Assembly: GCF_036417845.1 (NCBI RefSeq)
Contig: NC_090015.1
Span: 371,781 to 435,780, forward strand
Direction: 5' to 3'
DNA: 64,000 nucleotides
Origin: Apteryx mantelli
Taxonomy: Eukaryota; Chordata; Aves; Apterygiformes; Apterygidae
A model generated the notes under the pieces. It ran no database searches. It was not told the origin of the DNA and was given only the letters and a program-made list of their open reading frames with translations. The position numbers and the translations under genes were made by a program. Shown piece by piece: positions 9,001-59,200 of the stretch. Numbering within the stretch: position 1 is the stretch's first letter; each line of letters starts with the position of its first letter.

Positions 9001-10448
9001 TTGCGGGTGCGCGGGTTGTAGAGGATCTCGATCTCCTCCACCTCGCCGTACTTGCGGCACATCTCGGCCAGGAAGGGCTCGCGCACGTTGTCGTTGAGCC
9101 GCGCGAACGTCACCTCCTTCAGCGGGATCTGCCCGATGTAGAACTCGTCCAGCTGCGCCCGCGGGCGCCCGGCGCGTCACGCGGGGGTCGGGGAGGCGCT
9201 GCGGCGCCCCGCGGCTGCCCCACGGCTGCCCCACGGCGCCCCGCGGCCGTCTGCAGCGCCCCACGGCTGCCCTGCGGCCATCCACAGTGCCCCACGGCTG
9301 CCCCACGGCACTCCGCAGCAGTCCGCAGCACCCCATGGCTGCCCCACAGTGACCCACAGCTGTCCACAGCGCCCCACGGCTGCCCCACGGCCACCACACA
9401 GTGCCCCACAGGCGCCCGACATGTCACACAGGGGCCGGAGACATACCATGGCGCCCCGCGGCACCCCACAGCTGCCCCACGGCGCCCCCCAATCCCTCAC
9501 CTCAATCTCGGACGGGGCACGGTGCCCCACAGCTGCCCCATGGCCACCCCACAGCGCCCCCCAACCCCTCACCTCAATCTCAGGGAGGGGCACGGTGCCC
9601 CACGGCGCCCCATGGCTGCCCCACGGTGCCCCCCAACCCCTCACCTCGATCTCAGGGAGGGGCACAGTGCCCCACGGTGCCCCATGGCTGCCCCACGGTG
9701 CCCCCCAACCCCTCACCTCGATCTCAGGGAGGGGCACAGTGCCCCACGGTGCCCCATGGCTGCCCCACGGTGCCCCCCAACCCCTCACCTCAATCTCAGG
9801 GAGGGGCACGGTGCCCCACGGCGCCCCATGGCTGCCCCATGGCACCCCCCAACCCCTCACCTCAACCTCGGGCAGGGGCACGGTGCCCCACGGCGCCTCC
9901 CAACCCCTCATCTTGATCTCAGGCAGGGGCATGGCACCCCACGGCGCCCCACAGCCGCCCCACGACACCCCCCAACCCCTCACCTCGATCTCAGGGAGGG
10001 GCATGGCACCCCACGGCGCCCCATGGCACCCCACGGCGCCCCCCAACCCCTCACCTCGATCTCAGGGAAGGGCATGGCACCCCACGGCCACCCCACGGCG
10101 CCCCCCACCCCCTCACCTTGAACTTGGGGACGGGCAGCGAGAGGTCGCGGTGCTTGGCCCAGATGCGGCGGGGCCGGGGGTCGCGGACGTCGCCCACGGG
10201 GGGGAACCCCGAGTCCTGCGGGGAGGCGGGGGCTCGTTGGGGGGGGCTCGTTAGGGGGCTCGCCGGGGGGCGGCTCGCCGGGGGGCGGCTCGTTAGGGGG
10301 CGGCACTCACGGGCACGCTGAAGTGGACGCCATCGTAGCGGTAGACCTTCTGCGGGGCGCGGCGCAGCGCCGGGTCCACCACCAGCTTGTAGCTGCGCCA
10401 CGGGGCGCCGGCGGCTCGCTGGCTCTCAGCCGCCGCCTCCGGCTCCAT
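1..10448 (-). CDS. SETD1A: SETD1A, 5' portion (histone H3K4 methyltransferase subunit), runs off left edge
   Basis: Catalytic subunit of the nuclear SET1/COMPASS complex, which methylates histone H3 lysine 4; the SET domain itself lies beyond base 1. Exons with GT/AG borders (minus strand, 5' to 3'): 10311-10448, 10117-10215, 8882-9152, 7942-8063, 6726-6928, 4429-5450, 3111-3999, 2268-2444, 1243-1330, 986-1119, 777-897, 144-416, 1-53 (last is tentative). Recognised stretches: N-terminal [20 protein letters not shown]; the RRM at 8882-9152 ([30 protein letters not shown]); [19 protein letters not shown] near 4.7 kb; [10 protein letters not shown] and [15 protein letters not shown] (3.1-3.6 kb); [11 protein letters not shown] (2.3 kb); KRKEPSE and [14 protein letters not shown] (1.3 kb); an acidic/serine-rich tract at 0.14-0.9 kb. 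The start is the ATG at 10446-10448. The frame changes at G/C homopolymers near 3645 and 4790, probably assembly errors. Low-complexity Ala/Pro/Ser runs are expanded relative to the mammalian protein. SETD1B is the paralogue to exclude; the neighbour FBXL19 favours SETD1A. Confidence 0.95.
421..776. repeat. C-rich intronic minisatellite (SETD1A)
   Basis: Imperfect tandem units of the type CCCACGTCCCCAACCCGTCA with interspersed CCATGTCCTCCTGCCAC. It fills the intron between two acidic-region exons of SETD1A. No coding signal. Confidence 0.7.
1378..2215. repeat. 39-bp minisatellite in a SETD1A intron
   Basis: About 21 units with core CTCCCATGATGCCCCGGGGC followed by TCGTTAGCGCTCCCACGTG; successive ATGATG positions are 39 bases apart (1391, 1430, 1469). 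Because 39 is 13 codons and the unit has no stop in several frames, it generates long false ORFs on both strands. Near-identical units imply recent expansion. Confidence 0.9.
2490..3100. repeat. Minisatellite with GTGACCGTGAGCCCCAG core (SETD1A intron)
   Basis: Degenerate units of roughly 30-36 bases alternating GGTGACTATGAACCCC and GTCTGGGTGACCGTGAGC. It occupies the intron between exons 3111-3999 and 2268-2444. Confidence 0.75.
4003..4425. repeat. GGCGTCCGG-type minisatellite (SETD1A intron)
   Basis: Units containing CCCAGGCGTCCGG and ATTCACCCCACAACACCCC. First appearance in this window of a dispersed core, CCCAGGCGTCCGGG, that recurs in most of the other genes. Confidence 0.7.
5454..6723. 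repeat. GCACG-rich satellite-like array (SETD1A intron)
   Basis: 1.27 kb of GGCACG/GGCACA/GTGCGG words. The right half (6080-6640) has a higher-order unit of roughly 55-70 bases with CACGATGCGGTACACGGCAC. The left half is degenerate, as expected of an older array edge. It sits between exons 6726-6928 and 4429-5450. Confidence 0.85.
6932..7941. repeat. CCCCATGTCCC-type minisatellite (SETD1A intron)
   Basis: Left part (6960-7150) has units with CCCCAAAACGGCGCC; the rest is a degenerate run of TGTCCCCC and CATGTCCCC words, about 1 kb in all. No coding evidence. Confidence 0.75.
8066..8879. repeat. GTGGTGCCACC minisatellite (SETD1A intron)
   Basis: Degenerate units containing GTGGTGCCACCACAACGTT and TCCCCCTCGTGGTG fill the intron on the 3' side of the RRM exon. 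The GTGGTGCCACCAC core is nearly palindromic. Confidence 0.75.
9153..9479. repeat. CCCCACGGCTG minisatellite (SETD1A intron)
   Basis: Short units such as GCCCCACGGCTGCCC and CCGCAGCAGTCCGC continue the intron that also holds the donor-seeded array to the right. No exon signal. Confidence 0.65.
9480..10116. repeat. Minisatellite seeded by a SETD1A splice donor (9 copies)
   Basis: About 60-75-bp units. On the minus strand each begins CTGCCCCTCCCTGAGATCGA then GGTGAGGGGTTGGGG. The adjoining exon 10117-10215 ends CTGCCCGTCCCCAAGTTCAA then GGTGAGG. Nine copies (about 9495, 9567, 9636, 9712, 9786, 9858, 9906, 9978, 10053) therefore look like amplified copies of the exon's last ~20 bases plus its donor and first intron bases. 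Confidence 0.85.
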
Positions 10449-10544
10449 CCTGCCGCATCGACCTGCGGGAGCCGCGGGATCAGGGGGATCCCGGGATCGG
10501 AGGAGACCCCCCGGGGATGGGGGAGACCCCCGGGATTGGGGGAG

Positions 10545-10635
10545 ACCCCACGGGGCGCCAGCAGCTCGCTGGGTCTCAGCCACCACCTCCGGCTCCATCC
10601 TGCCGCATCGACCTGCGGCAGCCGCGGGATCAGGG
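10545..10635 (-). pseudogene. Partial tandem copy of the first coding exon of SETD1A
   Basis: About 90 bases upstream of the real first coding exon the same block recurs: acceptor, leader and start codon, reading MEPE then [12 protein letters not shown], against MEPE then [12 protein letters not shown] in the real exon, then diverging into intron. The copy lacks the donor side. It carries a usable acceptor and ATG, so it is a decoy or alternative 5' exon start. Confidence 0.75.
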
Positions 10636-10639
10636 TGAT

Positions 10640-12520
10640 CCCGGGATCGGAGGAAACCCCCCGGGGATGGGGGAGACCCCCCGGGATTGGGGGAGACCCC
10701 ATAAAGGCTTAAGGAGACCCCATGGGGCTTGAGAAGACTCTACAAAGCTCAGGCAGACCACATGGGGATCGGGGAGACCACACGGCTCCCGGGGAAACTC
10801 CATGGGGATCGGGGAGGCCCTATGGGCGCTCAGGGAGACCCCGCCGGTGCCCCCGGCCTCCCCTCGCGCCTCCAGGTCTCCCCTCATGCTCCTTGGTCTC
10901 CCCTGACACGCTCCCACTTCTCATACCCCCAAGTCTCCCCTCGAGCCCCCCGGTCTCCCCCCACACACCCCTTCCCCATTAACACCCCTAACTCTCTCCT
11001 GACACCCCCAAGTCTCGTCCCACACCCCCGTTTCCCCTCAGAGCTTCTCTCTCATCGCGCCTCCGCTCTCCCCCGGGGGACCCCCCGGTCTCCCCCAACG
11101 GACCCTCTCCCCTCGCACCCCCAGATCCATCGCTGAACCCCCAGGTCTCCTCTCAGAGCCCCCCTCTCTCCTCCCGCCCCCGGTCTCCCCCTGAGATGCC
11201 CCCGCTCGTGTGGCCGGGTCTCCCCACCCACCCCTCTCCCCACGTCCATCGGTCTCCCCCCGCTCCCCAAACGGCCCCTCGCAGGTTCCTCTTGCTCTCT
11301 CGCCTCCTGGTCTCCCCCGAGACCCCCCGGTCTCCCCTGGCAGCGCCCTCCCCAAGTCTCCCTGCTCGCCCCTCCCCTTCCCCAGCCTCACCCTCTCCCC
11401 CTGCCACCCCCAGCCCTCCCCTGGCCCCCCCAGGTCTCCCCCGATGCTCCCTAGTCTCCCCGGACAGACTCCCCACTCCTCGTGTCCCTCCCAGGGTCTT
11501 CCCTGACACCTCCCAGTCTCCCCTCTCCCCTCACATCCTCTGGTTTCCTCTCGCTCCCCCATTCTCTTCTCGCACCCCTGGGGTCTCCCCTGGTGTCCCC
11601 AGGCCTCCCCCTAGACATCCCTCTTCCCTCCCGCTCTCTGGTCCCCTCTCAAACCCCCTGGTCTACCCAAACCCTCTCTACCTCCCTCAACCCCTGGTCT
11701 CTCCTCCTGCCCCCAGACCCCCCTGACAGACCCTGATTCCCCTTGGCAGACCCTCTCCCCTCCCATTCCTTGGTCTCTCCTTGAACCCACCAGTCTGCCC
11801 GTACACTCCCTCTCCCCTCGCATCCCGCAATCCTCCCCGACACCCCCCGATCCCCCCGACAGACCCCAGTGCCCCCTGACAGACCCTCTCCCCTCCCACC
11901 CCTCGGTCTCCCCTCCTGCCCCCCCGGCTTCCCCACCCACTCCAGGTCTCCCCTCATCCTCTCCTGGTCTCCCCACACCCCTCTCTTCCCTCGCACCCCC
12001 CGGTCTCCCTTCGGAGTCACTGATCTTCCCTGACAAACTCTCTTCTCTCCCACCCCCCGGTCTCCCCTCGAGCCCCCTGGTCTCCCCACACCCCCTCTAC
12101 CCTCCCCAACCGCTGGTCTCCCCTCCTGTCCCCAGACCCCCCCCCGACAGACCCCGGTGCCCCCTAACAGACCCTCTCTCCTCCTGCTCCTCAATCTCCC
12201 CTTGAACTCTCCACTCTCCCCATACACCGCATCTCACCTCACACCCCCCCCAACAGACCCCGGTGTCCCCTGACAGACCCTCTCCCCTCCCGCCCCCCGG
12301 TCTCCCCTGGCACCCTCCGGTCTCCTCCCCTCCCCCCGATCCCCCCTCACACCCCCCGATCCCCCCTGACAGACCCCGATCCCCCCGGCAGCCCCCGGTC
12401 TCCCCTCTCCCCCCCGCCCCCCGGTCTCCCCTCGTCCCCTCCGGCCTCCCCACGCCCCCCTCTCCCCTCCCGCCCCCCCGCTCTCCCCACACGCCCCCTC
12501 CCTCCCGGCCGCCGCCCGCC
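10640..12520. repeat. CCCGGTCTCCCCT pyrimidine-rich minisatellite (SETD1A first intron)
   Basis: 1.9 kb of C/T-rich DNA on the plus strand with recurrent CCCCGGTCTCCCCTC and GACAGACCC words, strongly strand-asymmetric. Transcribed as a purine-rich (GGGGAGACC) RNA in the sense of SETD1A. No ORF with recognisable protein. Confidence 0.8.
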
Positions 12521-13130
12521 GCGCTCACCTGGCCCCGCTCCCGCCGCCGCCCCCGCTCGGGGGCCCCAGCGGGGTCCGGGGGGCCGCTCGGGGCGGGGGG
12601 GCCGCGGCGGGCGGAGGCGGAGGAGGGCGCGGGCGCCGCCGCCGCTGCCGCCGCCGCAGACACGGGGGGGGGGAGGGGGCGGCGCCAACGGCCGCGCTCG
12701 CGCCGCGCCGCTCTCGCGAGACCCGCGGCGCCTGCGCGCCCGCCCCGCCCCGCCCCGTCGCCGCACTTTCGCCACGGGGCCGCCGCCCCCGCCGCCGCCC
12801 CCGGCGGCTCCGCTGCGGCCCGGCGCCCCCGCCGCCGTCCTCGTCCCCCCCCGCCCGGGTCCCCTACGGAGCGGGGAGGGACAAGGGGGGCGAAGGGGGG
12901 AGCGGCACGAATCTGCCGCGGTGAATCCCGCCGCGGCGAATCTGCCGCGGCGAATGGCAACCCCGCTCCCTCCCCCGCCTCCCTCCGCCCCCCCACCACG
13001 CCGCGCGCACTGCGCAGGCGCGGCGCGCCCGGTGACGCGCTGCCGCCCGCCCGCCCGGAAGCGGCGCCGCGGCGCCCGCCGGGAAGCGCCGCGGCGCCTC
13101 ATTTGCATACATCTGCATACGAGCGAGGCG
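12500..13130 (-). promoter_or_regulatory. CpG-island promoter of SETD1A with octamer element
   Basis: CpG-dense sequence with GC boxes, no TATA box towards SETD1A, and a small tandem repeat around 12909-12957 (unit close to AATCTGCCGCGGCG). At its right end is CTCATTTGCATAC (13099-13111), an octamer (ATTTGCAT) followed by a second TGCATAC. The same CTCATTTGCATA type element occurs twice in the CD2BP2 promoter. Promoter activity is inferred from composition and from the position of the SETD1A first exon. Confidence 0.6.
12529..12720 (-). other. SETD1A: Probable non-coding first exon of SETD1A
   Basis: On the minus strand the sequence GGCCAG followed by GTGAGCGCGG ends at 12529 inside a CpG island, giving a good splice donor. 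It would join the acceptor at 10463-10465 just upstream of the SETD1A start codon, making an intron of about 2.06 kb. The upstream (right) boundary is a guess because no transcription start can be read from sequence. Confidence 0.5.
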
Positions 13131-13143
13131 CGCGCCGGAAGAA

Positions 13144-17300: not shown

Positions 17301-20300
17301 GGCCGCCCCCGCCCCCCCCCAGGGCTGCGGGGAGACCCTCGGGGGGCCCCGGCGTCCGGTGTGTCCCAACATGGGGACACGGGGGGGGCCCAGGCGTCCG
17401 GCGCGTCCCGACATGGGGACATGGGGGGGCCCCGGCGTCCGGCGCGTCCCGACCCGGGGACACGGGGGGGCCCAGGTGTCCGGGCACATCCCGACCTGGG
17501 GATATGGGGGGGCCCAGGCGTCTGGCGCATCCTGGCATGGGGACACGGGGGGGGCCCAGGTGTCTGGGCGCATCCCGACATGGGGACACGGGGGGGGCCC
17601 AGGCGTCCGGCGCATCCCGACCCGGGGACACGGGGGGGGCCCTGGCGTCCAGCGCATCCCGACATGGGGACACGGGGGGGCCCAGGTGTCCGGCACAACC
17701 CAACCCGGGGACACAGGGGGCCCCCGGCATCCGGGCTCACCCTGCAGGCGGCTGATGAGCCAGGAGAGCTGCTTGCGGGAGATGCTGGGCACAGGGACCC
17801 CGGCGTCCGGGCGCCTGTGTGCCCCCCTCCCCCCCCCATGGGGCCCCGGCGTCCGGGGCGCCTGTGTGCCCCCCTCCCCACCCCGCGGGGCCCAGGCGTC
17901 CGGGCTCACCCTGCCAGGCGGCTGATGAGCCAGGAGAGCTGCTTGCGGGAGATGCTGGGCACAGGGACCCCGGCGTCCGGGCGCCTGTGTGCCCCCCTCC
18001 CCCCGCCATGGGGCCCCGGCGTCCGGGCGCCTGTGTGCCCCCCTCCCCACCCCGCGGGGGCCCAGGCGTCCGGGCTCACCCTGCAGGCGGCTGATGAGCC
18101 AGGAGAGCTGCTTGCGGGAGATGCTGGTCCAGCTGAGGTCCAGGCTGGCCGGCTGCCGCCGGATGATGCCGCTCAGCATCGACGGCGTGATGGACTTGCG
18201 GCGGCTCAGGTCGATGCGGGTCCAGAGCCGCTTGTCGCAGCACCTGCCGGGGCGGGGGGGGGGGGTCAGGGGGGGTCAGGGGGCCCAGGCGTCCGGGCCC
18301 CGCCCCACCCCCCCCCAGGGCTCCTCGGGCCTGCGGGGGCCCAGGCGTCCGGGTGGCGCCGCGGCCGACAGCCCCCCGGGGAGCTTGAGGTGCCCCCGGC
18401 GGCCCGGCAGCTCCCGCGTCCTCCCAGCGACCCCCCCAGTGCTCCCAGTGACCTCCCAGTAACCCCCCACTGTGCTCCCAGTGCTCCCAGTGTCCCCCCA
18501 GTGCCTCCCAGTAACCCTAGGTGCCTCCCAGTGCTCCCGGCAGCCCCTCCAGCGCCTCCCAGTACCCTCCCAGTGCCTCCCAGTAACTCCCAGTGTCCCC
18601 CTAGCGCCTCTCAGTAACTCCCCAGTGCCTCCCAGTAACTCCTAGGTGCCTCCCAGTACTCCCAGCAGCCCCCACAGTGCCTCCCAGTGCCTCCCAGTAA
18701 CCCTAGGTGCCTCCCAGTGCTCCCAGCAGCCCCCGTAGTGCCTCCAGTACCCTCCCAGTGCCTCCCAGTAACTCCCAGCAGCCCCCGCAGTGCTTCCCAG
18801 TACCCTCCCAGTGCCTCCCAGTAACTCCCAGTGTCCCCCCAGTGCCCTCCCAGTAACCCCTAGGTGCCTCCCAGTGCTCCCAGCAGCCCCTGCAGTGCCT
18901 CCCAGTACCCTCCCAGTGCCTCCCAGTAACTCCCAGCATCCCCCCAGTGCCTCCCAGCAGCCCCTGCAGTGCCTCCCAGTGCCTCCCAGAACCCCTAGGT
19001 GCCTCCCAGTGCTCCCAGCAGCCCCCGCAGTGCCTCCCAGTACCCTCCCAGTGTCTCCCAGTGCCTCCCAGTAACTCCAGCGTTCCCCAGTGCCTCCCAG
19101 CAGCCCCTGCAGTACCTCCCAGTGCCTCCCAGTAACTCCCAGTGTCCCCCCGGCGCCTCCCAGCGCCTCCCAGCGCCTCCCAGCGCCCCCGGCGCCCGCG
19201 GTACCCAGCGGCTCCAGGTGCGGCAGACGCGCATGCAGACGCAGAGCTCGCGGGACGAGAGGTGCAGGAAGACGCCGAGCCAGACGTCGCGCTGCATCAC
19301 GTGGGCGGCGCCCGAGTCCAGCGGCAGCCGGTCGGGCTCGGGGCTGGCGGGGGGCGGCCGCACCACGTGCCGCTCCAGCGGGCGCCGGCGCCGCGGCGGC
19401 GACGGCACCAGGGGCCAGGCGCGCAGCCGCCCCCGCGCCGCCCCCCCCCCCCGCCGCTGCCGCCGCCACCGCGCGCGGGGACGACGATGCCGCCAGCGCT
19501 CGCGCGGGGCCCCCGGTGCCGTTGCGGGCGCCGGGCGGCCGGGGCTCCCCCTCGCTGCCGCCGCCCCTCCTCCTCCTCCTCGTCCTCCTCGTCCTCGTCC
19601 TCCTCGTCCTCGTCCTCGTCCCGCCCGGCGCCGCCACCGTCCTCCTCCTCCTCCTCCTCGGCGGGGCTGAAGGGCGGCGGGGGGCTGGCGCCGCTGCCCG
19701 AGTCGGAGTCGGAGTCGGAGCTGGAGCTGGAGCTGGCGGGGACCCGCTCCAGGAGGCGGCACATCTGCCGGAAGCGCTCCAGGCGCTCCCGCTGCGGCGT
19801 CCGGCACGGCGCCCCCGGGCCCTGCCGGCGCGCAGCCGTCACCGTCGGGATGGGGACAGCCATGGGGACAGCCGTGGGGATGGGGATGACTGGGGATGGC
19901 CACGGGGACTGGGACAGTGATGGGGACAGCCATGGGGACGGGGACAGCCATGGGGACAGCCATGGGGACAGGGACAACCCAGGCAAGTGCCCTCGGCGCC
20001 CCCCGGCCCTGCCGGCGCGCGCAGCCGTCACCATCATGGGGATGGGGACAGCAACAGGGACAACCGATTGGGGACGGCCATGGGGACGGCCATGGGGACG
20101 GGGATGGCCATGGGGACGGCCATAGGGATGACTATGGGGATGGAAACAGCGATGGGGACGGCCATGGGGACGCAGACGCCCATGGGGACAGCCATGGGGA
20201 CAGGGACAACCTGGGTGAGCGCCCCCGGGCCCCGCCGGCCCGCAGCCGTCACCGGTCAGGATGGGGACAGCCATGGGGACAGCCGTGGGGATGCGGACGG

Positions 20301-23300
20301 CCATGGGGACGGCCATGGGGATGACTATAGGGATGGGCACAGCGATGGGGACGGCCATGGGGATGCAGACGCCCATGGGGACGGCCATGGGAACAGGGAC
20401 AGCGATGGGGATGGGCACAGCGATGGGGACGCCCATGGGGACGTGGACGCCCATGGGGACAGCCATGGGGACAGGGACAACCCAACGAGCGCCCCAGGAC
20501 ACCGGCCACACGGGGACTGAGGGCACCTGGTCCTGGCTCAGCGCTGGGAACAAGCCTGGGGCACTGGGGGAGCCTGGTGACAACCGCGGGGACGCTGGAG
20601 GACCTTAAGGGCAACCTTGGGGACGTCGGGGACAGCCCTGGGGCTACTGGTGGCCCACGGGGGCAACTCCGGGGATGCTGGGGACAATCCGGGGATGCGG
20701 GGGGCCAGCGGGGCCGACCCTGGGGGTGCCAGGTGGGATGGGGACGCAGCGGGGACGCGGGGGGGGACACAGCAGGGACTCACCTCGGCGCCGGGGGGGC
20801 CGGAGCCCGGGGGCGGCACCTCAGGGGGCTCCAGCTCCGCCGGCCCCACGTGGCCCCAGGGCGTCCCGTCCGCCGCCTCCGCCTGCGGGACCCGCGTCAG
20901 CGCCCGGACGCCTGGGCCCCCGCTTCCGCCCGCCCTGGACGCCTGGGCCCCTGGGAGCTGCCTGCCCCGGACGCCTGGGCCCTGGGATCCCCCTGTCCCG
21001 GACGCCTGGGCCCCGGGATCCCCCCTGCCCCGACGCCTGGGCCCTTGGTGCCCCGGGGCACAGTGGGATGGGGAGGACGGGGGCGGGGGGGGGCGGGGGG
21101 GCGCTCACCTTTCCCAGGTGCTTTTCTCGGCCCCCTTTTAACTGCGCGAGAGAAAAACAGGGAGAAACGGCTGCGGCGCCGGACGCCTGGGTCCCTCCGG
21201 AGGCCCCGGACACCTGGGTCCCTTGGGGGGGGGGTGGGGGGGGGGCCCCCCTGATGCCTGGGACACTTCGGGGGGTGGGGGGGGTCCCGGACGCCTGGGT
21301 CCCTCCTGGGGGGGAAGGAGAAGCCCCCCCCGCCCCCGCCCGGACGCCTGGGCCCTCACTTTCTGCCGGGGGGCGGCGTCGGGGGCGCCGGGGTCGCGGC
21401 GGCGCTTGTGGGGCGCCTCGTCGGGGGGCCCGGGGGGCGGCGGCGGCCCCCGGCGCTTGGGGGGGGGCTCCTCGGTCAGGCGCCAGCGCCCCCCCCTCGT
21501 CCCCGTTGTCCGCCCGGCGCTTGGCGCCGCCGTCGCCCGCGTCCTGGGGGGGGGAAGGAGAGCGGTGCTGGGCCCCCGCGCGGCACGGGGGGGCCCAAAA
21601 CCGTTGGGGGGGCCCAAAACCCAGGAAACCCCCCAAACCCAGGAACCCTGAAAACCCCAAACCCCCCCAAAAACCGCGGAATCCCCCCAAAACTCCCTGC
21701 TGCTCCCCAGCCCCAGGCACCCTCAAAACCCAGGGACCCCCCCAGCCACCCCAGGCCCCCCCAGACTCCCCCTGGTCCCGTGTCCCCCCCATAACCCCCC
21801 CCAGCCCATGGCCCCCCCGGGTCCCCCCACACTCACCTTGGCGCTGCGCCCCCCAGCCCCACAGCTGCCTCCCCAGCCCACAGCTGCCCCCATGGCCCCC
21901 CCTGTCTCCCCCCCGCTCACCTTGGCACTGCACCCCAAGTCCCCCCCCAGCCCCATAGCCACCCCCGTGTCCCCCCCCGTGTCCCCCCCCTGCTCACCTT
22001 GGCGCTGTGCCCCCAGCCCCACAGCCCCCCCCATGTCCTCCCTCATTTCCCCCCCACACCTTGGCGCTGTGCCCCCCCAGCCCCATAGCCTCCCCCCCAT
22101 CCCCCCCCCGCTCACCTTGGCGCTGCACCCCCTGGCTCCACAGCAGCCCCCCCAGCCCCATAGCTGCCCCCATGGCCCCCCCCATCCCCCCCCTGCTCAC
22201 CTTGGCGCTGTGCCCCCAGCCCCATAGCCTCCCCCCCGTCCCCCCCCCGCTCACCTTGGCGCTGTGCCCCCCAGCCCCATAGCCTCCCCCCCGTCCCCCC
22301 CCCCGCTCACCTTGGCGCTGTGCCCCCCAGCCCCATAGCCTCCCCCCCCGTCCCCCCCCCGCTCACCTTGGCGCTGCACCCCCCGGCTCCACAGCAGCCC
22401 CCCCAGCCCCATAGCACCCCCATGGCCCCCCCATGGTCCCCCCCGCTCACCTTGGCGCTGTGTCCCCTGGCTCCCCCAGCCCCATAGCACCCCCATGGCC
22501 CCCCCATGGTCCCCCCTGCTCACCTTGGCGCTGTGTCCCCTGGCTCCCCCAGCCCCATAGCTGCCCCCATGGCCCCCCCCGTCCCCCCCCCGCTCACCTT
22601 GGCGCTGCGCCCCTCCCGCTTGCACTTGGGACACTCCCAGCAGTTGGGGATCTCGGGGTTGATCACGGCCTCGGCCCGGCCCATCTGCGGGGGAGGTGGG
22701 GCGGGGGGGGGTCAGAGCCGCCCCCGGGGCCCAGGCGTCCGGGCGCCCCCCTCCCACGGGACCCAGGTGTCCAGGCGCCCCCCACCCAAACCAGGGGACC
22801 CAGGCGTCCGGGCCCCCCACAAGAAGGGGCCCAGGTGTTCTGGGCTGTGCCCCCCTCGCCCCCAAGGGGCCCCGGTGTCCGGGTCACCTCCCCCCGCCCC
22901 CAAACCAGAGGTCCCCCCTCCCCCCCCAGGCCCAGGCGTCCAGGTGCCCCCCTTCCACACCCCCCCCCGGGGCCCAGGCGTCCGGGCGCCCCCCCCACCC
23001 CCTCCGCCCCCCCCCAAGGGGCCCAGGCGTCCGGGTGCCCCCCCCCACCCCCTCCGCCCCCCCCCCCAAGGGGCCCAGGCATCCAGGCGCCCCCCCCACC
23101 CCCTCCGCCCCCCCCCAAGGGGCCCAGGCATCCAGGCGCCCCCCCCCACCCCCTCCGCCCCCCCCCAAGGGGCCCAGGCGTCCGGGCGCCCCCCCCAAGG
23201 GGCCCAGGCGTCCGGGTGCCCCCCCCCCAAGGGGCCCAGGCGTCCGGGCACCTGGAGGCAGCGGGGGTGGACGATCTCGCTGCAGATGCTGCACTCCATG

Positions 23301-23822
23301 AGCGAGAGCTCGAAGCGCTCCTCCGCCGCCGCCGCCGCCTCCTCGCGCCCGGCCTCGCCGCACGCCAGGCACACGGCCGTGTGGGGCAGCACCGGCTGCG
23401 GGGGGGCGCGGGGGGGGGACATGGGGGTCAGGGCTGCCCCACGGCGCCCCACGGCGCCCCCACGCCCCCCCATGGTGTCCCCCTGCCCCCCCAGGCAGCC
23501 TCGCCGCACGCCAGGCACACGGCCGTGTGGGGCAGCACCGGCTGGGGGGGGGCACGGGGGGGGACATGGGGGTCAGGGCTGCCCCACAGTGTCCCCCGGC
23601 CCCCCAGGACCCCCCCAGCCCCACGGTGCCCCACGGCGGCCGCTCACCGCGGTGCACTGCCGCAGCAGGCAGCTCTGCTTCATGCGCCCGGGGCCGCCGA
23701 ACTTCTTCATGTCGCGGCAGAAGTGGCACTCGCCGCACTCGGAGCGCAGGCAGGCCCGGCACCTCCGGCACCGCGTCCGGCGCCGCCGCGCTGCCGCCCC
23801 CCCCCCCGCGGCTCGACGGCAT
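14398..23822 (-). CDS. FBXL19: FBXL19, CXXC zinc-finger / PHD-like / F-box / leucine-rich-repeat protein
   Basis: Nuclear CpG-island-binding F-box protein, a substrate receptor of SCF ubiquitin ligases. Exons (minus strand): 23648-23822, 23252-23395, 22598-22684, 21360-21543, 21109-21141, 20784-20882, 19205-19821, 18080-18243, 17103-17264, 15669-15875, 14398-14623. CXXC finger: [62 protein letters not shown]-like part: [18 protein letters not shown] and [19 protein letters not shown]. Then [42 protein letters not shown] with an acidic/Ser run, and the F-box region ([39 protein letters not shown]). C-terminal LRRs: [54 protein letters not shown]; the protein ends EEKLLLKDS. The start chosen is the ATG at 23820-23822 (MPSSRGG), matching a known shorter mammalian start. 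Frame breaks lie at C-runs near 19445, 21492 and 23803, and exons 19205/18243 join one base out of phase (TGG then GTGCTGC). Confidence 0.95.
14627..15666. repeat. GGGATGGGGACGAGGA minisatellite (FBXL19 last intron)
   Basis: Degenerate units containing GATGGGGACGAGGACGTTGG, giving way at 15560-15650 to CGTCCGTCCCCC units. Strong G-rich/C-rich strand asymmetry; no coding evidence. Confidence 0.8.
15915..16640. repeat. 20-bp minisatellite GACACCTCCAGCCCCACACG
   Basis: About 30 units of 20 bases, interrupted by GGGGAGCCCGGCCCC variants, in the intron between FBXL19 exons 17103-17264 and 15669-15875. From 16640 to 17100 the array changes to CATGTCCCCC words. Confidence 0.85.
16641..17102. repeat. 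CCCATGTCCCC degenerate repeat (FBXL19 intron)
   Basis: Continuation of the same intron with CATGTCGACGTCCCCC at about 16935, 16996 and 17065 (an approximately 60-65-bp higher-order unit) and many CCCCATGTCC words. Confidence 0.65.
17280..18079. repeat. GGCGTCCGG minisatellite containing two partial copies of an FBXL19 LRR exon
   Basis: 17280-17735 has roughly 60-bp units with CCCAGGCGTCCGG and CATGGGGACACGGGGGGGC. At about 17739-17786 and 17909-17966 the 3' half of exon 18080-18243 (reading QLSWLISRL, with its donor) is repeated, each followed by CACAGGGACCCCGGCGTCCG. The spacing of the three copies is about 170 bases. The real exon is the rightmost because only it continues into [13 protein letters not shown]. 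Confidence 0.85.
18420..19204. repeat. CCCAGTGCCTCCCAGTAACTCC minisatellite (FBXL19 intron)
   Basis: Dozens of CCCAGTGCTCCCAGTAAC-type words with higher-order blocks containing CAGCAGCCCCCGCAGTGCC, between the F-box exon and the first LRR exon. No coding evidence. Confidence 0.8.
19830..20530. repeat. GGGGACAGCCATG minisatellite with two partial exon-edge copies
   Basis: Units of 12-18 bases such as GGGGACGGCCATGGGGAC. Blocks at about 19987-20033 and 20219-20255 repeat the 5' edge of F-box exon 19205-19821 with its acceptor (GGCCCTGCCGGCGCGCAGCC), giving a higher-order period of about 200-230 bases. Confidence 0.8.
20890..21360. repeat. CGGACGCCTGGGCCC minisatellite around small FBXL19 exons
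   Basis: Units around CCCGGACGCCTGGGCCC flank the 33-base exon 21109-21141. The dispersed core is here in the opposite orientation to the copies at 17.3-18.1 kb and 22.7-23.25 kb. Confidence 0.65.
21832..22597. repeat. Donor-seeded minisatellite of the FBXL19 GRSAK exon (11 extra copies)
   Basis: Eleven tandem units of about 55-85 bases each contain CTCACCTTGGCGCTG (minus strand CAGCGCCAAGGTGAG), identical to the end of exon 22598-22684 plus its splice donor, followed by C-rich intron with CAGCCCCATAGC. Copies start near 21832, 21915, 21993, 22055, 22111, 22196, 22250, 22306, 22361, 22445 and 22519. One copy (22055) has lost the consensus donor (CACACC). Confidence 0.92.
22700..23250. repeat. 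GGCCCAGGCGTCCGGGCGCC minisatellite (FBXL19 intron)
   Basis: Units of roughly 30-70 bases with CAAGGGGCCCAGGCGTCCGG and CCACCCCCTCCGCCCCCCCC. One of the densest occurrences of the dispersed core motif. Confidence 0.8.
23490..23550 (-). pseudogene. Partial tandem copy of an FBXL19 zinc-finger exon
   Basis: About 100 bases upstream of exon 23252-23395 the 5' part of that exon recurs (reading [15 protein letters not shown]), with flanking intron CGCGGGGGGGACATGGGGGT. The Cys-containing core is intact but the exon is truncated, so inclusion would disrupt the CXXC/PHD region. Confidence 0.8.
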
Positions 23823-43688: not shown

Positions 43689-46600
43689 ATGGCCAAGCGC
43701 AAGGTGACATTCGAGGACCCTGAGGACGAGGAGGAGCCCGGCCCCCCCCGGAAGAGGGTGAGGCACTGGGGGGCGCTGGGGGGCTGCCGTGGGTCGCTGT
43801 GGGGCCGCCCTGTGTGGGAGCCGGGGGCCCCGGGGGGCCCTGGGAGCCGGGGGCTGCCGTGGGTCAGCCGTGGGTCAGCCGTGGGGCCGCCCTGTGTGGG
43901 AGCCGGGGGCACCAGGGGGCCCTGGGAGCCGGGGGCTGCCGTGGGTCGCTGTGGGTCAGCCGTGGGGCCGCCCTGTGTGGGAGCCGGGGGCACCGGGGGG
44001 CCCTGGGAGCCGGGGGCTGCTGTGGGTCAGCCGTGGGTCAGCTGTGGGGCCGCCCTGTGTGGGAGCCGGGGGCACCAGGGGGCCCTGGGAGCCAGGGGCT
44101 GCCGTGGGTCGCTGTGGGTCAGCCATGGGGCCGCCCCGTGCAGGAGCCAGGGGCGCCGGGGGGCCCCGGGAGCCGGTTCCCAGGGAAGCACTCGCTGGAC
44201 AGCGATGAGGAGGATGAGGCCGAAGGCAGCAGCAAGTACGACGTGCTGGCGCCCCACGACGTGGAGGGTGAGTGGGGTGGCGGGGGGGCTCCGTGGGGCA
44301 GCGGGGGTCTCCGTGGGGTGCTGTGGGGCAGCCATGGGTCGCCATGGGGCACGCTGACCCCTGTGCAGGGCAGGAGGTGGAGGCGGAGGGGGGGGCGCGA
44401 GGCCGCGCAGGGCGGCGGGGGGCAGCCGTGGGGCGGGTGTGGGGGCTCCATGGGGTGGCAGGGGGGCTCCGTGGGCGCCGTGGGGTGGCGGGGGGCTCCG
44501 TGGGGCGCCATGGGGCAGCCGTGGGGCGCGCTGACCCCCGTGCAGGGCAGGAGGCGGCGACGGTGGAGGCGGAGGGGGGGGTGCCCGTCACCCCCTTCAA
44601 CCTGCAGGAGGAAATGGCCGAGGGTCACTTCGACTCCTGAGGGCAACTACTTCCCCCGGCGGGAGAACCTGCCCCGGGACAGCTGGCTGGACAACATCGA
44701 CTGGGTGAGGGGACGCGGGGGGGGGGGACACGGGGGGGACACAGGGATGTGGGGGGGGACATGGGGACACCATGGACACGGGGGGACATGGGGACACAGG
44801 ACAGCTGGCTGGACAACATCGACTGGGTGAGGGGACACGGGGGGGGACACAGGGACGTTGGGGGGGGACATGGGGACACCATGGACACGGGGAGACGTGG
44901 GGAGACATGGGGGGACATGGGACACGGGACAGCTGGCTGGACAACATCGAGTGGGTGAGGGGACGTGGGGGCGACTCGGGGGGGACACGGGGGGACATGG
45001 GACATGAGGGGATGTGGGGGGACATAGGGGGACACGGGACATGGGGGGGACACAGGACAACTGGCTGGACAACATCGACTGGGCGAGGGAACGTGGGGGA
45101 ATATGAAGACACAGGGACATGGGGACATGGGGACATGGGGACGGGCTGGAGAACCTCAATGGGACGGGGGACGTGGGGACGGGGGACACAAGGGCGGGTT
45201 GAAGGACCTCCACGGGACGTGGGGACACGGGACGGGGTCCCCGGGGCCGCGTGCCGTGACGGGGGCCGCGTGCCGCGTGCCGGGTGCCGTCGGCAGGTGA
45301 AGATCGCGGAGCGGCCGGCGCGTCCCCGGCCAGGTGACGATGGCGACAGCGACGGGGACGAGGGCGCCGCCGCCGCCGCCGCAGCCGGCACTGCTGCAGG
45401 GGACCCTGGAGCTGCTGCGCCCGGGCGAGACGGTGGCGGGGGCCCCTGCGGCGCCTGGGGGGCCGGCGGGGGCGGCGGCGGCGGGGGGGGGTGGCAGCGG
45501 CGCCCCGCGGCGACGGTGACGGTGACGGCGGCGACGGTGACGGCGACGGCGACGCGGGGCGCCTGGAGCGCCTGGTGGAGCTGGCCGACGGGCTGGTGGC
45601 CCGCGGGCTCCTGGGCGTCTACCAGGAGACGCGGGAGCGGCTGGCGCTGCGGCTGCGCGCGCTGGGGGGGGCCCCGGGGACCCCCCCGGCCTCGGGGACC
45701 CCCGGGACCCCCCCGGCCCCGGCCGCCGACCACCTCGACATCTTCGCCCCCGACATCGACCCCGTGCGCCTGGAGGCCCCGGCCGAGGGTGAGACGGGGG
45801 GGGGACGTGGGGGGGGGAACCCCCAAAGGGGTCGGGGGGGCCCATGGGGGTGTGGGACCCCCCCCATAGGGGTCTGGGGGGTCCATGGGAGTCTGGGGGT
45901 GGTTATGGGGGTGTAGGACCCCCCATAGGGGTCTGGGGGGATGCGGGGCGATCTGGGGGGACCCATGGGGATGTGGGACCCCCTGTAGGGGTCTAGGCGG
46001 GTCCATGGGGGCAGCAGGACTCCCCTATGGGGGTCTGGGGTGCCTGGGGGGGTCTATGGGGGTGACACGACCCCCCCAGTGCAAGTCTGGTGGTTCCGTG
46101 TGGGTTTGGGGGGGGTCCAGGGTGCTCCGGGGGGTCTCTGTGGGGCTGGTGGAGCCCCCCCGACCCCCCCCACCCTGTGTGCAGGGGGGTCGGCGCTGGG
46201 CGAGGTGCTCTGGGGTGTCTGGGGGGGTCCGTGTGGGTCAGGGGTGTCTGGGGGGGTCCATGTGGGTCTGGGGGGGTCTGGGGGATCCATGTGGGTCTGG
46301 GGAGCTCTGGGGGGGTCTGGGGGGGTCCGGGGGGCTCTGGGGGGTCTCTGGGGGGCTGGTGGAGCCCCCCCGACCCCCCCCACCCCGTGCGCAGGGGGGT
46401 CGGCGCTGGGCGAGGTGCTCTGGGGTGTCTGGGGGGGTCCGTGTGGGTCTGGGGAGCTCCGGGGGGGTCTGGGGGTGTCTGTGGGGGTCCGTGTGGGTCT
46501 GGGGGGGTCCGGGGGGGTCTCTGTGGGGCTGGTGGAGCCCCCCCGACCCCCCCACCCCATGCGCAGGGGGGTCGGCGCTGGGCGAGGTGCTCTGGGAGTA

Positions 46601-49456: not shown

Positions 49457-49544
49457 CCACGCGGCATCACCTGCGGGGCAGTGGCTCCCATGAGCCTCTG
49501 GGGCAGCAGCTCCCATCAGCCCCAGGGTGGGGCATGCCAAGTGG

Positions 49545-49728: not shown

Positions 49729-49734
49729 GGGGGG

Positions 49735-53000: not shown

Positions 53001-54992
53001 GTTCATGTGCGCCCGTGTACCGACGTGTGTCCGTGTGCATGTCCGTGTCAGCGTGCATCTGTGTGTCTGTGTCTGGGTGTGTCCATGTGCGTTCATGTGT
53101 CTGTGTCTGTTTGTCCGTGTGCGTCCGTGTGTCCATGTGCATTGCTGTATGTGTCCACGTGTGTCTGCGTCCGCGTGTCCGTGCGTCCCGCGCTCCCCTC
53201 ACCCCTCTCCCCCCCAGATCTCCGCACGGGAGCGCAGGTGCAGGTCATCGAGGTGCACAAGTACGAGGTGAGCGCGGGGGGGGGGGGGCACCGTGTCCGG
53301 GGGGGCCCAGGCGTCCGGGGCCCTCCTGACCCCCCCATCGCATCCCATCCCCCCCCCCCAGGAGTGCAGCCGGCCCCAGAACGGGAAGTGGATCCGGTGC
53401 CTGGCCACGGACTCGGACTGGATGGTGAGCGGGGCCGGGGGGGGCGGCAGTGTAGGACTGGGGGGGGGTTGCGGGGCTTGGGGGGGGGTTGTGGGGCCAG
53501 GGGGGGCAGTGTGGGGCCGGTGGGGGCCCCCCCGCCTGCCCAGCGCCCCCCCTAACGGCCCCCGGCGCCCCCCAGGTGTGCGGGGGGGGCCCGGCGCTGA
53601 CGCTGTGGCACCTGCGCTCCGTCACCCCCCACCACCGTCTTCCCCGCTGCCGCCCTGCCAGCAGCACGTGCTCTTCTACCAGGACCTGGTGAGTCCCACC
53701 CCCACGACCCTCCCGCGACCCCCCCGGACCCCCCTTGGACCCCCCCAGACCCCCCTAGATCCCCCCCGGGCCCCCCCCAGACCCCCTTGGACCCCCCCAT
53801 ACTCCCCCGGACCCCCCCAGACCCCCCTGGGCCCCCCCAGACCCCTCTGGACCCCCCCCGGGCCCCCCCTTAGTGATCTGGGCCCGGCTGTTGCCCCCGC
53901 GCGGCTCCAGGGCTCCCCGGCAGTTTTGCACTCGGGGGGGGGGGGGGGGTCGCATTTGCTGCTCCCAGTCCGTCCCAGTGGCTCCCAGTGCCCTCGGGTG
54001 CTCTCCCCCCCCCCACCCCGGCTCATCCAAGTGTTTGCAGAGTCTCCGGCGCGTGTTGTCCGCAGTCCATCCCAGTGCTCTCCGCGTGCTCTCCCGGTGC
54101 CCCCCAGTGCCCCCCAGTCCCCCCCCAGCACCCGGGTTTCCTTTCCCAGTGCCCCCCAGCACCCGGGTCTCCCTCCCCAGCACCCCCCAGTCCCCCCCAG
54201 TGCCCAGCTGTCCCTCCCAGTGCCCCCCAGCGCCCCCCAGCGCCCGCTGTGCCGGCAGCTGCTGGCGGGGGGGCAGGGCCCGGCCGTGCACCACCTGCAG
54301 CTGAGCGGCGAGGTGAAGGCCCGGATCCCCTGCACCCCCCGCGCCGTCCTCTCCCTCTGCCTCAACGAGCGCTCCCCCGAGCACAAGGTGGGCGGGGCTA
54401 TGGCAGGGGGAGGGGCTACCGCAGGGGCGGGGCCACAGTGGGGGCAGGGCTATGGAAGGGGGAGGGGCTATGGCAGGGGAGGGGCCCGTGCGGGAGGGAG
54501 CAGGGAGCGCTGCCTGGGAGCGGGTGGGTCTAAATGGGGGGGTGGGAGGGACCATGAGGGAGTGGGAGGGGCCTGGGAGTGGGAGGGGCCTCAAATAGGC
54601 TGTGGGAGGAGCTAGGAAAGAGCAGGGGGGTTAAAGTAGAAGGGGTTGGGCAGTGGGAGGGGCCTAATTGGGAGTGGGAGGAGCTAGGCCAGGTGGGAGG
54701 AGTTAGGAATGGAAGGGTGGAGTGGGAGGGGCTACAAGTGAGGGGGAGGGGCCTGATGGTGGGGGCAGCTGGGAGTGGGTGGGACCTGGAGCAGCAGAGG
54801 TGGATAAAGGAATAGGAGGGGAGGAGCTTGGGAGTGGGAGGGGCCTGGGTAAATGGGGTGGGGCCTAGGTCTGTGGGCGGAGCCTGACACCTCCCTCCCC
54901 CCCGGCAGGTGCTGACGGCGGCCGGGAGCAGCCCCAAAATCGACGTCTTCACGAACCTGGGCTACCGGGCCTTCTCGCTGGCCTTCGCCTGA
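50064..54992 (+). CDS. THOC6: THOC6, WD40 subunit of the THO/TREX mRNA export complex
   Basis: Nuclear WD40 protein of the THO complex, coupling transcription, splicing and mRNA export. Exons: 50064-50078 (MAPAE), 50417-50532, 50606-50670, 51075-51178, 51288-51326, 51412-51459, 51547-51617, 52265-52367, 53218-53267, 53362-53424, 53576-53688, 54259-54387, 54909-54992. Landmarks: [199 protein letters not shown], end AFSLAFA. The exon 2 acceptor is a NAGNAG (50417 or 50420). Homopolymer frame breaks lie near 51315, 51568 and in 53625-53660. Confidence 0.96.
50150..50412. repeat. TTTCCCAGCATGCCCCGGGGCTGGGTCG minisatellite (THOC6 intron 1)
   Basis: Six units of about 50-60 bases containing GATTTCCCAGCATGCCCCGG then GGCTGGGTCGTGCCAAT. 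The real exon 2 acceptor is TTTCCCAGCAG, so the unit begins with the same TTTCCCAGCA, suggesting acceptor seeding. Confidence 0.85.
50675..51060. repeat. CTTCCCAGCATGCCTTGCGC minisatellite (THOC6 intron 3)
   Basis: About nine units of roughly 39-43 bases: GCTTCCCAGCATGCCTTGCG then CCCACTCACGCCAACCCTGGC. Confidence 0.9.
51620..52258. repeat. GGGACAGGGAGCGACGTGGG minisatellite (THOC6 intron 7)
   Basis: Purine-rich sense strand with GGGACGGGGAGGGATGTGGG and ACAGGATGGGGACGGGGATA; one higher-order duplication of about 120 bases is visible between 51960 and 52110. Confidence 0.8.
52380..53212. repeat. TGTCCGTGTGCGTG array (THOC6 intron 8)
   Basis: 830 bases of GTCCGTGTGCATCC / GTGTGTCCGTGTG words: long alternating purine-pyrimidine tracts, Z-DNA-prone, with lower GC than neighbouring introns. 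Confidence 0.85.
54395..54900. repeat. GTGGGAGGGGCCTGGGAG purine-rich repeat (THOC6 last intron)
   Basis: Degenerate units such as GGAGTGGGAGGGGCCT and GTGGGAGGAGCTAGG; related words are found in the repeat tail of the zinc-finger gene (GTGGGAGGAGCTTGG). Confidence 0.7.
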
Positions 54993-55230
54993 GCCCAGTG
55001 CATCCCAGTACATCCCAGTACATCCCAGTTCGCCCCGAGCTGGGCTACCGGGCCTTCTTGCTGGCCTTCGCCTGAGCCCAGTGCATCCCAGTATGTCCCA
55101 GTACGTCCCAGTGCCTCCTGGGATGGGCTACAGGGCCTTCTCGCTGGCCTTGGTGTGAGCCCAGTACGTCCCAGTGCATCTCAGTGTGTCCCAGTTGCCC
55201 CCCGGGCTGGGCAGTGGGGCCTTCCCACAT
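54993..55230. repeat. Tandem copies of the THOC6 terminal coding edge, including the stop codon
   Basis: The exon end GGGCTACCGGGCCTTCTCGC then TGGCCTTCGCCTGAGCCCAG recurs near 55029-55083 and, with substitutions, near 55120-55162; a fourth trace (GCAGTGGGGCCTTCCCACAT) is near 55206. Copies are separated by TGCATCCCAGTACATCCCAG. Spacing is about 80 bases. They lie in the 3' UTR. Confidence 0.88.
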
Positions 55231-56160
55231 GCCGATTTCAGAGCCCAGTGCTCCCAGTACCTCCCAGTTCCTCCCAGTCCCCCCAGTTTATTACATGCTC
55301 TATGGGGTTTTTTTGTCCGTTGTCACCTGTGGTCATTGAAGCGGCCGCGGCAGTGGCACGGGGACGGGATGGGATGGGGGGGATGAGGGACATGGGACAG
55401 TGATGGGGGACGTGGGGGACGTTGACGGGGGACATGGGGAGCATGGGGCAGCGAGGGGGACACGATATTGGGGACAACGAGGGGGACACGTGGCTTTTGG
55501 GGACGTTGCAGACGTTGAGGGGACGTTGGGGACATCAGGGACGTCAATGGGAGACCTTGGGGACGGTGACGGGGACATTGGGGACACTGAGGGGGACATG
55601 TGGCTTTTGGGGACTTTGGGGACGGTGATGGGGGCCACTGCCAAAAGCAGCAGGGGAAGGAAACGGCCCTGAAGGAGCCTCAGAACAACCGGAAATGGCC
55701 AAAAGGAAGGGGCCACAAAACAAAACCAAAACTCTGAAAACAGACTGGGACTGTCCCCGAATGGCCCAAAACAGCCTCAAACGGCCCCAAAGGGCTTCAA
55801 CGGGCCATGAAACGGAAACAGCCTGGGACCTCACAAAATGGGCCCAAAGGGCTCTGAAAGAGACCCAGAGTGGCCCCAAACCCCTGGAAACGGCCCCAAA
55901 AGGCCCTGGAAGAGCCCCGGGAAGCGTCGAAACCATTTTAAACAGCCCCAGGCGGCCTCCAAGGGCCGGAAAGGGCCCCGAAACAGCCGGAAATGGCCCC
56001 AAAACGGGCTGAAACAGCCCCGGGGAGCCTCAAAATGCCCCAAAACGGCCTCAAAACGGTGTCCATGTCCCCCCAGCCCCGGCAGCCCGGACGCCTGGGC
56101 CCTCTTCCCCCCCTCCCCCCCCCCCCCAGCGACAGCCACACGGAGCCCCGGGCGTGCGGG
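55231..56160. other. Intergenic region between convergent THOC6 and CD19
   Basis: Contains a plus-strand TTTATT at 55287 (AATAAA on minus, possible distal signal of CD19), GGGGACATTGGGGAC repeats (55380-55630), and a less GC-rich GGCCCCAAAACGGCCTCAAA repeat (55690-56060). No plus-strand AATAAA for THOC6 was found. No gene recognised. Confidence 0.55.
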
Positions 56161-56166
56161 TTTATT
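56161..56166 (-). terminator. Polyadenylation signal AATAAA of CD19
   Basis: TTTATT on the plus strand just left of the CD19 stop at 56223-56225, giving a 3' UTR of under 80 bases. Confidence 0.75.
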
Positions 56167-56222
56167 GGAACACGGAGGGGGACACGCAGGGACACCGGGG
56201 GGGACGCGGGGGGACGCGGAGC

Positions 56223-59200
56223 TCAGGCCAGCGCCGCTGCGGGGGTCTCGCTCCTCGTCCCCTCCATGTTCTCGTAGGAGTCGGCGTCTGCGGGTGGCAG
56301 CGGGGTCAGAGCCACCGTCCCCCGGTGTCCCCCATGCCCCTGTCCCTGAGTGTCCCTGTGTGTCCCTGTGCCCTGGTGTCCCTGTCCCCCCATGACTCCA
56401 TCCCCCGGTGTCCCCTGTCCCAGCGTCACCATCCCCTCAGGGGTCCATGTCCCCAACCCCATCCAGGTGTCCCCATCTGGGTGTCCCCATTCGGGTGTCC
56501 CCATCCCTGTCCCCATGTCCTGGTGTCCCCATCCTGGTGTCCCCATGTCCCTGTCCCAATGTCCCCATTCCCATCCTGGTGTCCCCATTCGGGTGTCCCC
56601 ATCCCTGTCCCCGTGTCCTGGTGTCCCCATCCTGGTGTCCCCATGTCCCTGTCCCAATGTCCCCATTCCCATTCTGGTGTCCCATTCGGGTGTCCCCATC
56701 CCTGTCCCCGTGTCCTGGTGTCCCATCCTGGTGTCCCCATGTCCCTGTCCCAATGTCCCCATTCCATCCTGGTGTCCCCATTCGGGTGTCCCCATCCCTG
56801 TCCCCGTGTCCTGGTGTCCACATCCTGGTGTCCCAATGTCCCTGTCCCAATGTCCCCATTCCCATCCTGGTGTCCCCATTCGGGTGTCCCCATCCCTGTC
56901 CCCGTGTCCTGGTGTCCCCATCCTGGTGTCCCCATGTCCCTGTCCCAATGTCCCCATTCCATCCTGGTGTCCCCATTCGGGTGTCCCCATCCCTGTCCCC
57001 GTGTCCTGGTGTCCCCATCCTGGTGTCCCCATGTCCCCCATCCCAGTGTCCCGTTCAGGTGTCCCCATCGCCACCCCAGTGTCCCTCTCCCCATCCTGGT
57101 GTCCCTCCATCCCCATGTCCCATCCCGTGTCCCATCCCATGTCCCATCCCGGTGTACCCATGTCCCATCCCGGTGTCCCCGTCCCCCCCCCCGGGGCCCC
57201 TCACCGTCGTCGGGGGCCGGCAGGGCGCTGCGGCGGGGGGCGGCGTAGAGGGCCCCCCCGGCCATGTCCTCGTAGGGCTGCGACCCTGGGGGCAGAGGGG
57301 TGTCGGGGGGGGGGGTCGGGGGGGCACTGGAGCAGCCCCCCCCCCATGGCCCCCAGCCCTGCTCACACGCAGCAGCCCGGGGAGGGGACGGGGGGGATGG
57401 GAGATGGGGGGTCTGGGGGGGGTCGGGGGGGTCGGGGGGGCACCGGACCGGCCCCCCCCGCGGCCCCCAGCCCCGCTCACCCGCTGAGCCCTCGCTGCGC
57501 CCGTCCTGCGCTCGCCTGCACCCAGCAGCACCCGCTGGAGGCCTGGGGGGGGGGACGGGGGGGTCAGGGGGGGTGGGGAGTCTGGGGGGGTCTGGGGGGG
57601 CTGAGGGTGGGGGGGGGGGGGACACAGGGCCGGGGGGGGGACAGGGACACCCCCGTCACCGGAGACCAGGCACCTGCTGGAGGTCGGGGGGGGGGGACAT
57701 GGGGGGGGTTGGGGGGGTCTGGGGGGGGTCTGGAGGGGGACATGGGGTGATGGGGAGGTCAGGGGGGATGGGGACAGGATTGGAGGGGTCGGGGGGGGTC
57801 TGGGGGGGCTGAGGGTGGGGGGGGGACACAGGGCCGGGGGGGGGGACAGGGACACCCCCGTCACCGGAGACCAGGCACCTGCCTGGAGGTCGGGGGGGGG
57901 GATATGGGGGGGGTTGGGGGGGTCTGGGGGGGTCTGGAGGGGGACATGGGGTGATGGGGAGGTCGGGGGGGATGGGGACAGGATTGGGGGGGTCGGGGGA
58001 GTCTGGGGGGGCTGAGGGTGGGGGGGGGGACACAGGGCCGGGGGGGGGGACAGGGACACCCCCCGTCACCGGAGACCAGGCACCTGCTGGAGGTCGGGGG
58101 GGGGATATGGGGGGACAGGAGGGGTCGGGGGGGCTGGAGGGGGACAAGGGTGACAGGGGGACACGGGGGGACAAGGAGGTCGGGGGGGATGGGGACAGGG
58201 TTGGGGGGGACAAGGGGGGTCGGGGGGTCCCGGGGGGGGCCCCCGTCACCTGAGACCAGCCGCGCCGCCCCAGGGCTCAGTGGGGTCGGCTCCATCGCCG
58301 GGGCTGTCGAGCGCCTGCCGCCTGCGGAGGGGGGTACAGCTGCTCAGGGGGTACAGCCGGACAGGGGGATACAGCCGCTCAGGGGGTACAACCGGTTGGG
58401 GGGGTACAGCCACATGGGGGGTACAGACAGACGGGGGTACAGCCGCTCAGGGGGGGTACAGCCGGATTGGGGGGGGTACAGCCGCTCAGGGGGTACAGCC
58501 AGACAGGGAGGGTACAGCCACGCGGGGGCTACAGCTGGACGGGGGTACAGCTGGATGGGGAGTACAGACAGACAGGGGTACAGCTGCTCAGCAGGTACAG
58601 CCAGACAGGGAGGGTACAGCCACACGGGGGCAAGTGCAGACACTCAGGGCAGGTACAGTCGGATGGGGGGGTACAGTCGGACAGGGGTTACAGCCGCGTG
58701 GGGACACTCACGCAGGCTGCTCCCGGGCTCCGGGCAGGTGTTGGCGTAGTGGGGGGCAGCTGTGGGGCAGGACAGGGGTGATGTGGGTGGGGGGGGAAGC
58801 CCCGTTATTGCCCCCTCCCGTGGCCTGGGACCCCCGTCCTGCCCCCCAGGGGTACCTGCCCCCCATATCTGCCCCCAGGGTATCCCCCCCCGTACCTGCC
58901 CCCCAGGGGTACCTGCCCCCCATATCTGCCCCCAGGGTATCCCCCCCCGTACCTGCCCCCCAGGGGTACCTGCCCCCATATCTGCCCCCCGGGTATCCCC
59001 CCCCCCGTACCTGCCCCCCAGGACTCAGCAGCCGCCTCCAGCCCGTTCTCGTAGCTGCCTGTGGGGGAAGGAGGCGTCAGGGACGGTGTGGGGCAGCGGG
59101 GGCAGATATGGGGCAGATGAGGGGCAGGCAGGGGGGATGTGGGGCAGGTGGGGCAGGTGTGGGGGAGGATGTGGGGCAGGTGTGGGGTAGCTGGGGAGGG

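Follow-up and report, generated by a model that had tools for sequence, protein, structure and literature searches.

Genes and sequence of the window

The window, a stretch of 64 kb of Apteryx mantelli DNA that appears to belong to one of the bird's tiny chromosomes, has a GC content of 65-83% when its first 60 kb are read in 2-kb steps, and 559 TRF rows were obtained from it. Coding segments were located by a GC3 codon-periodicity scan and belong to six genes. SETD1A lies on the minus strand and CD2BP2 and THOC6 on the plus strand, and each of these three names is backed by a PDB sequence match. A second minus-strand gene is FBXL19-like: its CXXC-PHD part matches the FBXL19 chain best, while its F-box part best matches the KDM2B and KDM2A chains, not FBXL19, so that the name FBXL19 is only partly backed by these matches. 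The TBC domain of a further plus-strand gene is backed by PDB comparison; by resemblance to the human sequences, this gene is presumably the paralogue TBC1D10B, and the remaining gene, on the minus strand, is presumably CD19.

Splice junctions were set by hand, 93 in the six genes, defining 46 introns of 71 to 2,491 bp. Some of them were matters of judgement, as in the FBXL19-like gene, where both the acceptor at 19821, which has a poor splice-site score, and the donor at 19204 are uncertain. A coding stretch resembling C2H2 zinc fingers was picked out by eye from the periodicity scan between the FBXL19-like gene and the TBC-domain gene (28689-29087, plus strand). A gap of 200 Ns occupies 61301-61500, and beyond it, at 62001-64000, lie simple repeats whose translations read PHPHPH and TPTPTP, with a GC content as low as 37% and a GC skew down to -0.99.

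Copied exon edges

A preliminary description of this region reported that its introns hold tandem copies of exon-intron junctions at 17 intervals, plus one interval at a stop codon, and each of these does hold a repeat of the kind described. All of the named intervals were read directly apart from 44861-45190 in CD2BP2, where copies (44955, 45083) were placed by script only. The arrays and single copies are as follows.

9480..10116, minus strand: SETD1A donor-type array, the tail of exon 10117-10215 with GTGAGG and intron; 8 copies scored, of which 7 keep GT; most units 72 bp long
10463..10720, minus strand: SETD1A acceptor copy of the 5' exon, start-codon region included; 149/150 bp aligned at a period of 150, units head to tail
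17739..18079, minus strand: FBXL19 donor-type array; 2 copies with an exon part of up to 48 bp, repeating at a period of 169-170
19987..20255, minus strand: FBXL19 acceptor-type; 2 copies, one with AG; true acceptor 19821, annotation uncertain
21832..22597, minus strand: FBXL19 donor-type array; 11 copies, GT in all, 10-16 exon bp
23396..23600, minus strand: FBXL19 acceptor-type, from exon 23252-23395; copy at 23541, 44 exon bp, period 146
36380..36672, plus strand: TBC1D10B-like acceptor-type; 2 copies with some 20 bp of exon
37647..38440, plus strand: TBC1D10B-like donor-type array; 11 copies, GT in all, unit 57-68 bp
38515..38717, plus strand: TBC1D10B-like acceptor-type; one copy, at 38524, with 44 bp of exon
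38907..39365, plus strand: TBC1D10B-like donor-type array; GT in 2 of 3 copies; exon part up to 46 bp, or 54 bp when gaps are allowed; the best copy 40/40 identical across the junction
40070..40330, plus strand: TBC1D10B-like donor-type array; 3 copies with 24 bp of exon
43790..44143, plus strand: CD2BP2 acceptor-side array; 4 copies (43818-44063), period 81-82, AG lost in 4/4
44361..44545, plus strand: CD2BP2 acceptor-type; copy at 44369
44705..45190, plus strand: CD2BP2 donor-type array; GT in 2 of 3 copies, 28-30 bp of exon copied
46181..46566, plus strand: CD2BP2 acceptor-type; 2 copies, 30 exon bp
54957..55284, plus strand: array at the boundary of the THOC6 stop codon; 4 copies at a period of 83, splice site not involved
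57550..58249, minus strand: CD19-like donor 58249; 3 copies, 10 exon bp, below the strict test
57550..58249, minus strand: CD19-like acceptor 57542; 2 copies without AG, passing the strict test
58840..59010, minus strand: CD19-like donor 59010; copies of short period with 9-12 bp of exon, not passing the strict test
59059..59560, minus strand: CD19-like acceptor 59058; one copy at 59533

The strict test compared the 20 exon and 20 intron bases at an edge with the adjoining intron and took the best ungapped copy in which each half was at least 60% identical; an edge passed if that copy matched at 28 or more of the 40 positions, at a level reached by none of 100 dinucleotide shuffles of its own intron. 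Applied to the 80 edges of the 40 introns no shorter than 150 bp, it found a junction-spanning copy at 16 (7/40 donors and 9/40 acceptors), so that copying of exon edges far beyond chance, on both strands, is upheld. The two rates are about equal (p=0.78), and a bias toward donors was not supported. Passing edges amounted to 5/14 in TBC1D10B, 4/10 in CD2BP2, 4/16 in FBXL19, 2/12 in CD19, 1/14 in SETD1A, and 0/14 in THOC6. The junction copies said to occur in at least six genes are thus found in five, THOC6 being rejected as a splice-edge case. Fourteen of the 17 exon-intron intervals correspond to edges that pass, and the original observation is sound, if slightly over-counted.

The passing edges have 57 copies in all, from 1 to 11 per edge as had been claimed, and the rows of decoy splice sites proposed earlier are borne out in the 47 copies that keep GT or AG intact and not in the 10 that have lost it. 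In all counted cases, the copied part crosses the exon-intron border, as is required by the demand on both halves of the 40-mer. The longest ungapped exon part per edge ranges from 9 to 48 bp, with a median of 22 (n=16 edges). Units stand head to tail or nearly so: with unit limits drawn from alignment of disjoint regions, neighbours are separated by 2-52 unaligned bp (15 events). Two exon breakpoints, at 40070 in TBC1D10B and 44705 in CD2BP2, appear by eye to share short homology with intronic GGGGACA-like motifs, which we offer as a lead only. The acceptor copy of the SETD1A 5' exon (10545-10635) matches at 39/40, whereas the best of 100 simple shuffles gave 24.

In the CD19-like gene, the donor sets at 58249 and 59010 are weaker, with 9-12 exon bp copied and best matches of 25/40 and 27/40, levels that 1 and 2 shuffles in 100 attained; adding these two donors brings the total to 65 copies, 54 with GT/AG. 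The gene also supplies two acceptor cases beyond those first listed, 59058 (copy at 59533) and 57542 (copies at 57684 and 58094, both without AG).

The boundary at the THOC6 stop codon is copied as well, at 38/40 with simple shuffles as the null, within a TRF array of period 83 and 4 copies, in agreement with the stop-codon type described before. By the same null, the stop codons of CD2BP2 and FBXL19 showed no copies, and stop-codon copying as a rule was not supported, at 1 of 3 tested.

The phenomenon itself has already been published. Hron et al. 2026 (GBE evag038, PMC12954441) described "exon stuttering", or sequence stuttering, on chicken dot chromosomes, reporting 1,345 hits in 115 genes and 236 introns, dot chromosomes accounting for 190 of the introns, with 1-44 copies (median 4) and an exon part of 20-187 bp (median 36). 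Their evidence includes a shuffled-intron control and support from raw nanopore reads for PHF8; 86% of dot-chromosome introns were length-variable, the copies bear donor or acceptor sites and may yield alternative transcripts, and non-crossover gene conversion was proposed as a speculation. The arrays seen here resemble the chicken cases in anatomy, with a lateral exon part and its donor or acceptor repeated in imperfect tandem in the adjoining, repeat-filled intron: they are direct, tandem, and border-spanning, in 1-11 copies, within introns that are 71% repeat-covered. Six of the 16 passing edges have an exon part shorter than the 20-bp cut of Hron et al. The main text of PMC12954441 names none of the six genes found here. 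The null given there is shuffled introns, and the available parts of the paper hold no comparison of edges with intron points; the copied stop-codon border of THOC6 likewise sets this window apart from the cases described in those parts. That comparison and the stop-codon case are what is new here.

Other precedents are more distant. In the human IFI6 minisatellite (1995; cited in PMC4526556), repeat units supply several splice donors, which according to PMC4526556 are used in transcripts of that single gene; the copies described here are potential splice sites in several genes. Tandem genomic duplication also affects introns in the potato RdRp gene (PMC4974935), where it produced a new intron; in this window, an existing intron is lengthened. 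A limited literature search found no general report of exon-edge copying before Hron et al. 2026.

Edges compared with intron interiors

The preliminary description took the boundary to be the place where minisatellites are created by a general process, and this is not supported in the window. When 12 interior points per intron were scored with matching thresholds and shuffles in the same 40 introns, 252 of 480 proved to be copied, as against the 16 of 80 edges. A position profile over the 34 introns of 380 bp or longer, at a fixed threshold of 30/40, gave copied fractions of 51% in the intron, 21% at the edge, and 0.3% at 40-120 bp inside exons, some exons being shorter than that depth. The edge-to-intron ratio in these 34 introns is 0.40 (95% interval 0.23-0.59, bootstrap over introns), and the rise from edge to intron was seen in seven combinations of window size and threshold. 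Copies are scarce in the first and last ~30 intron bases too, which may be an effect of array ends or of selection on splice signals.

TRF arrays of period at least 15 cover 54% of bases 1-61300 and 71% of the 30,223 intron bases in the 40 introns, and coverage is 31% in the terminal 20 intron bp, 12% in the terminal 20 exon bp, and 7% at 40-60 bp inside exons. Straddling of an edge was scored where one such array extended over at least 10 exon and at least 20 intron bases. A single array straddles only 10 of the 80 edges; random points in the same introns gave 49.9 +/- 3.6 (minimum 42 over 300 draws) and circular shifts 37.2 +/- 4.5 (0/300 as low as 10). The expectation that arrays overlap edges more than chance would allow is therefore contradicted, in this window only.

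At high identity, a small bump stands exactly at the junction. Copies at 34/40 or better were found for 11/68 junctions, compared with 6/68 positions ten bases into the intron, and at 36/40 for 8/68 compared with 3/68; the discordant pairs run 5 to 0 in each case (p=0.06), among 14 comparisons. No such bump was seen in the remaining five window and threshold settings. Across the 40 introns, no association was detected between interior duplication and copied edges (Spearman 0.09, p=0.58; 10/50 versus 6/30), and because a purely passive model mildly predicts such a correlation, its absence counts against that model.

It had been suggested that GC-rich boundaries or R-loops promote the copying. 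Copied and uncopied edges do not differ significantly in intron GC (p=0.10), G-over-C skew (p=0.41), or exon GC (p=0.93), and preferential copying of G-rich or GC-rich edges was not supported; nothing here therefore points to R-loops.

Origin and meaning of the arrays

We consider it probable, at about 80%, that exon stuttering is a by-product of local tandem duplication that is blind to gene structure and acts on this GC-extreme kind of chromosome, combined with selection on the exon body. Tandem units do fill most of the intron sequence, as the coverage shows. Where a unit happened to straddle a constrained border, whether an exon end or, in THOC6, the end of the coding sequence, the copy nearest the exon body would stay in use, and the anatomy of the arrays suggests that the remaining copies would end up in intron or 3' flank, where they could multiply and degenerate. 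Any duplication confined to an exon, or one that brought harmful decoys with it, would be purged by selection, as the profile suggests; the earlier view that selection keeps the exon while the copies drift is consistent with the steep fall of copying inside exons. Candidates for the molecular step are slippage, short-homology repair, replication stress, and non-crossover gene conversion, and slippage or short-homology repair might act in the context of replication or of meiotic recombination. The process is taken to be indiscriminate because donors and acceptors are copied at about equal rates, composition does not differ significantly between copied and uncopied edges, and copying also occurs at a boundary that lacks a splice site; the THOC6 array shows that a splice site is not required.

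The obvious alternative is that exon edges are true seeds, a boundary-specific process (R-loops, splicing-linked breakage, a nucleosome edge, or a step in composition) starting arrays that then spread into the intron. The 16 edges copied beyond their shuffles and the small high-identity bump at the junction would fit such a process, as would the finding that more than 90% of copied exon sources in chicken lie within 1 base of the border (Hron et al., PMC12954441), though selection on the exon interior would presumably leave the same signature. Seeding at edges is nonetheless unlikely, given that the rate of copying at edges is 0.4 times that in introns, that arrays straddle edges less than in all 300 circular shifts, that neither donor/acceptor asymmetry nor any significant difference in GC or skew was seen, and that the THOC6 array has no splice site. 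In one assembly, mutation and selection are inseparable, and a mutational excess at edges could be masked by selection. We regard it as quite improbable that edges are hot spots for tandem duplication hidden in this way by strong purifying selection; were they so, the small junction excess would be their trace. It is also conceivable that the copies are selected decoys, retained to regulate splicing of their own exon, and the large share with GT/AG, many with scores like those of real sites (by an approximate matrix), agrees with that idea. Young copies would retain their sites even without selection, however, copies are rarer at edges than elsewhere, and four in CD2BP2 and two in CD19 have no AG, so that we give selected decoys almost no credence.

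The assembly itself deserves scrutiny, since stutter or collapse of a long-read assembly in GC-rich repeats could generate false copies. Exon interiors are nearly copy-free, yet three apparent frame breaks, noted by eye, possibly reflect sequence errors and, with the N gap, mark the sequence as imperfect. One falls in the TBC1D10B-like exon 38718-38906, which is out of frame as assembled: the exon reads CTCCCTGG, all three intronic copies read CTCCCCTGG, and two near-exact intronic copies hold an open frame. The intronic copies thus act as a witness to either a homopolymer error or a variant. A second lies at about 44630-44640 in CD2BP2 exon 44546-44704, where a stop comes just after HFDS and EGNYF continues in another frame, probably a sequence error. 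The third is at the FBXL19 donor 19204, beside a short G run, whose phase is off by one base relative to the next exon (18243); a sequence error or an unusual site is possible. As an account of the arrays, assembly artefact is very improbable: copies differ from one another by substitutions and their spacings vary, and in chicken the PHF8 anatomy is confirmed in raw nanopore reads and length alleles occur across individuals (Hron et al., PMC12954441).

Through exon stuttering, intron instability, and perhaps the loss of genes in birds, has been tied to extreme GC content (Hron et al., PMC12954441). The comparison made here suggests that the edge is not the cause of stuttering; constrained borders would merely reveal, as copies of known sequence, a wider process of duplication. 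For gene prediction and read mapping, dozens of intact false donors and acceptors stand beside real exons in these genes. If edges were hot spots after all, the copied donors and acceptors would form a reservoir from which genes on dot chromosomes could draw new splice isoforms.
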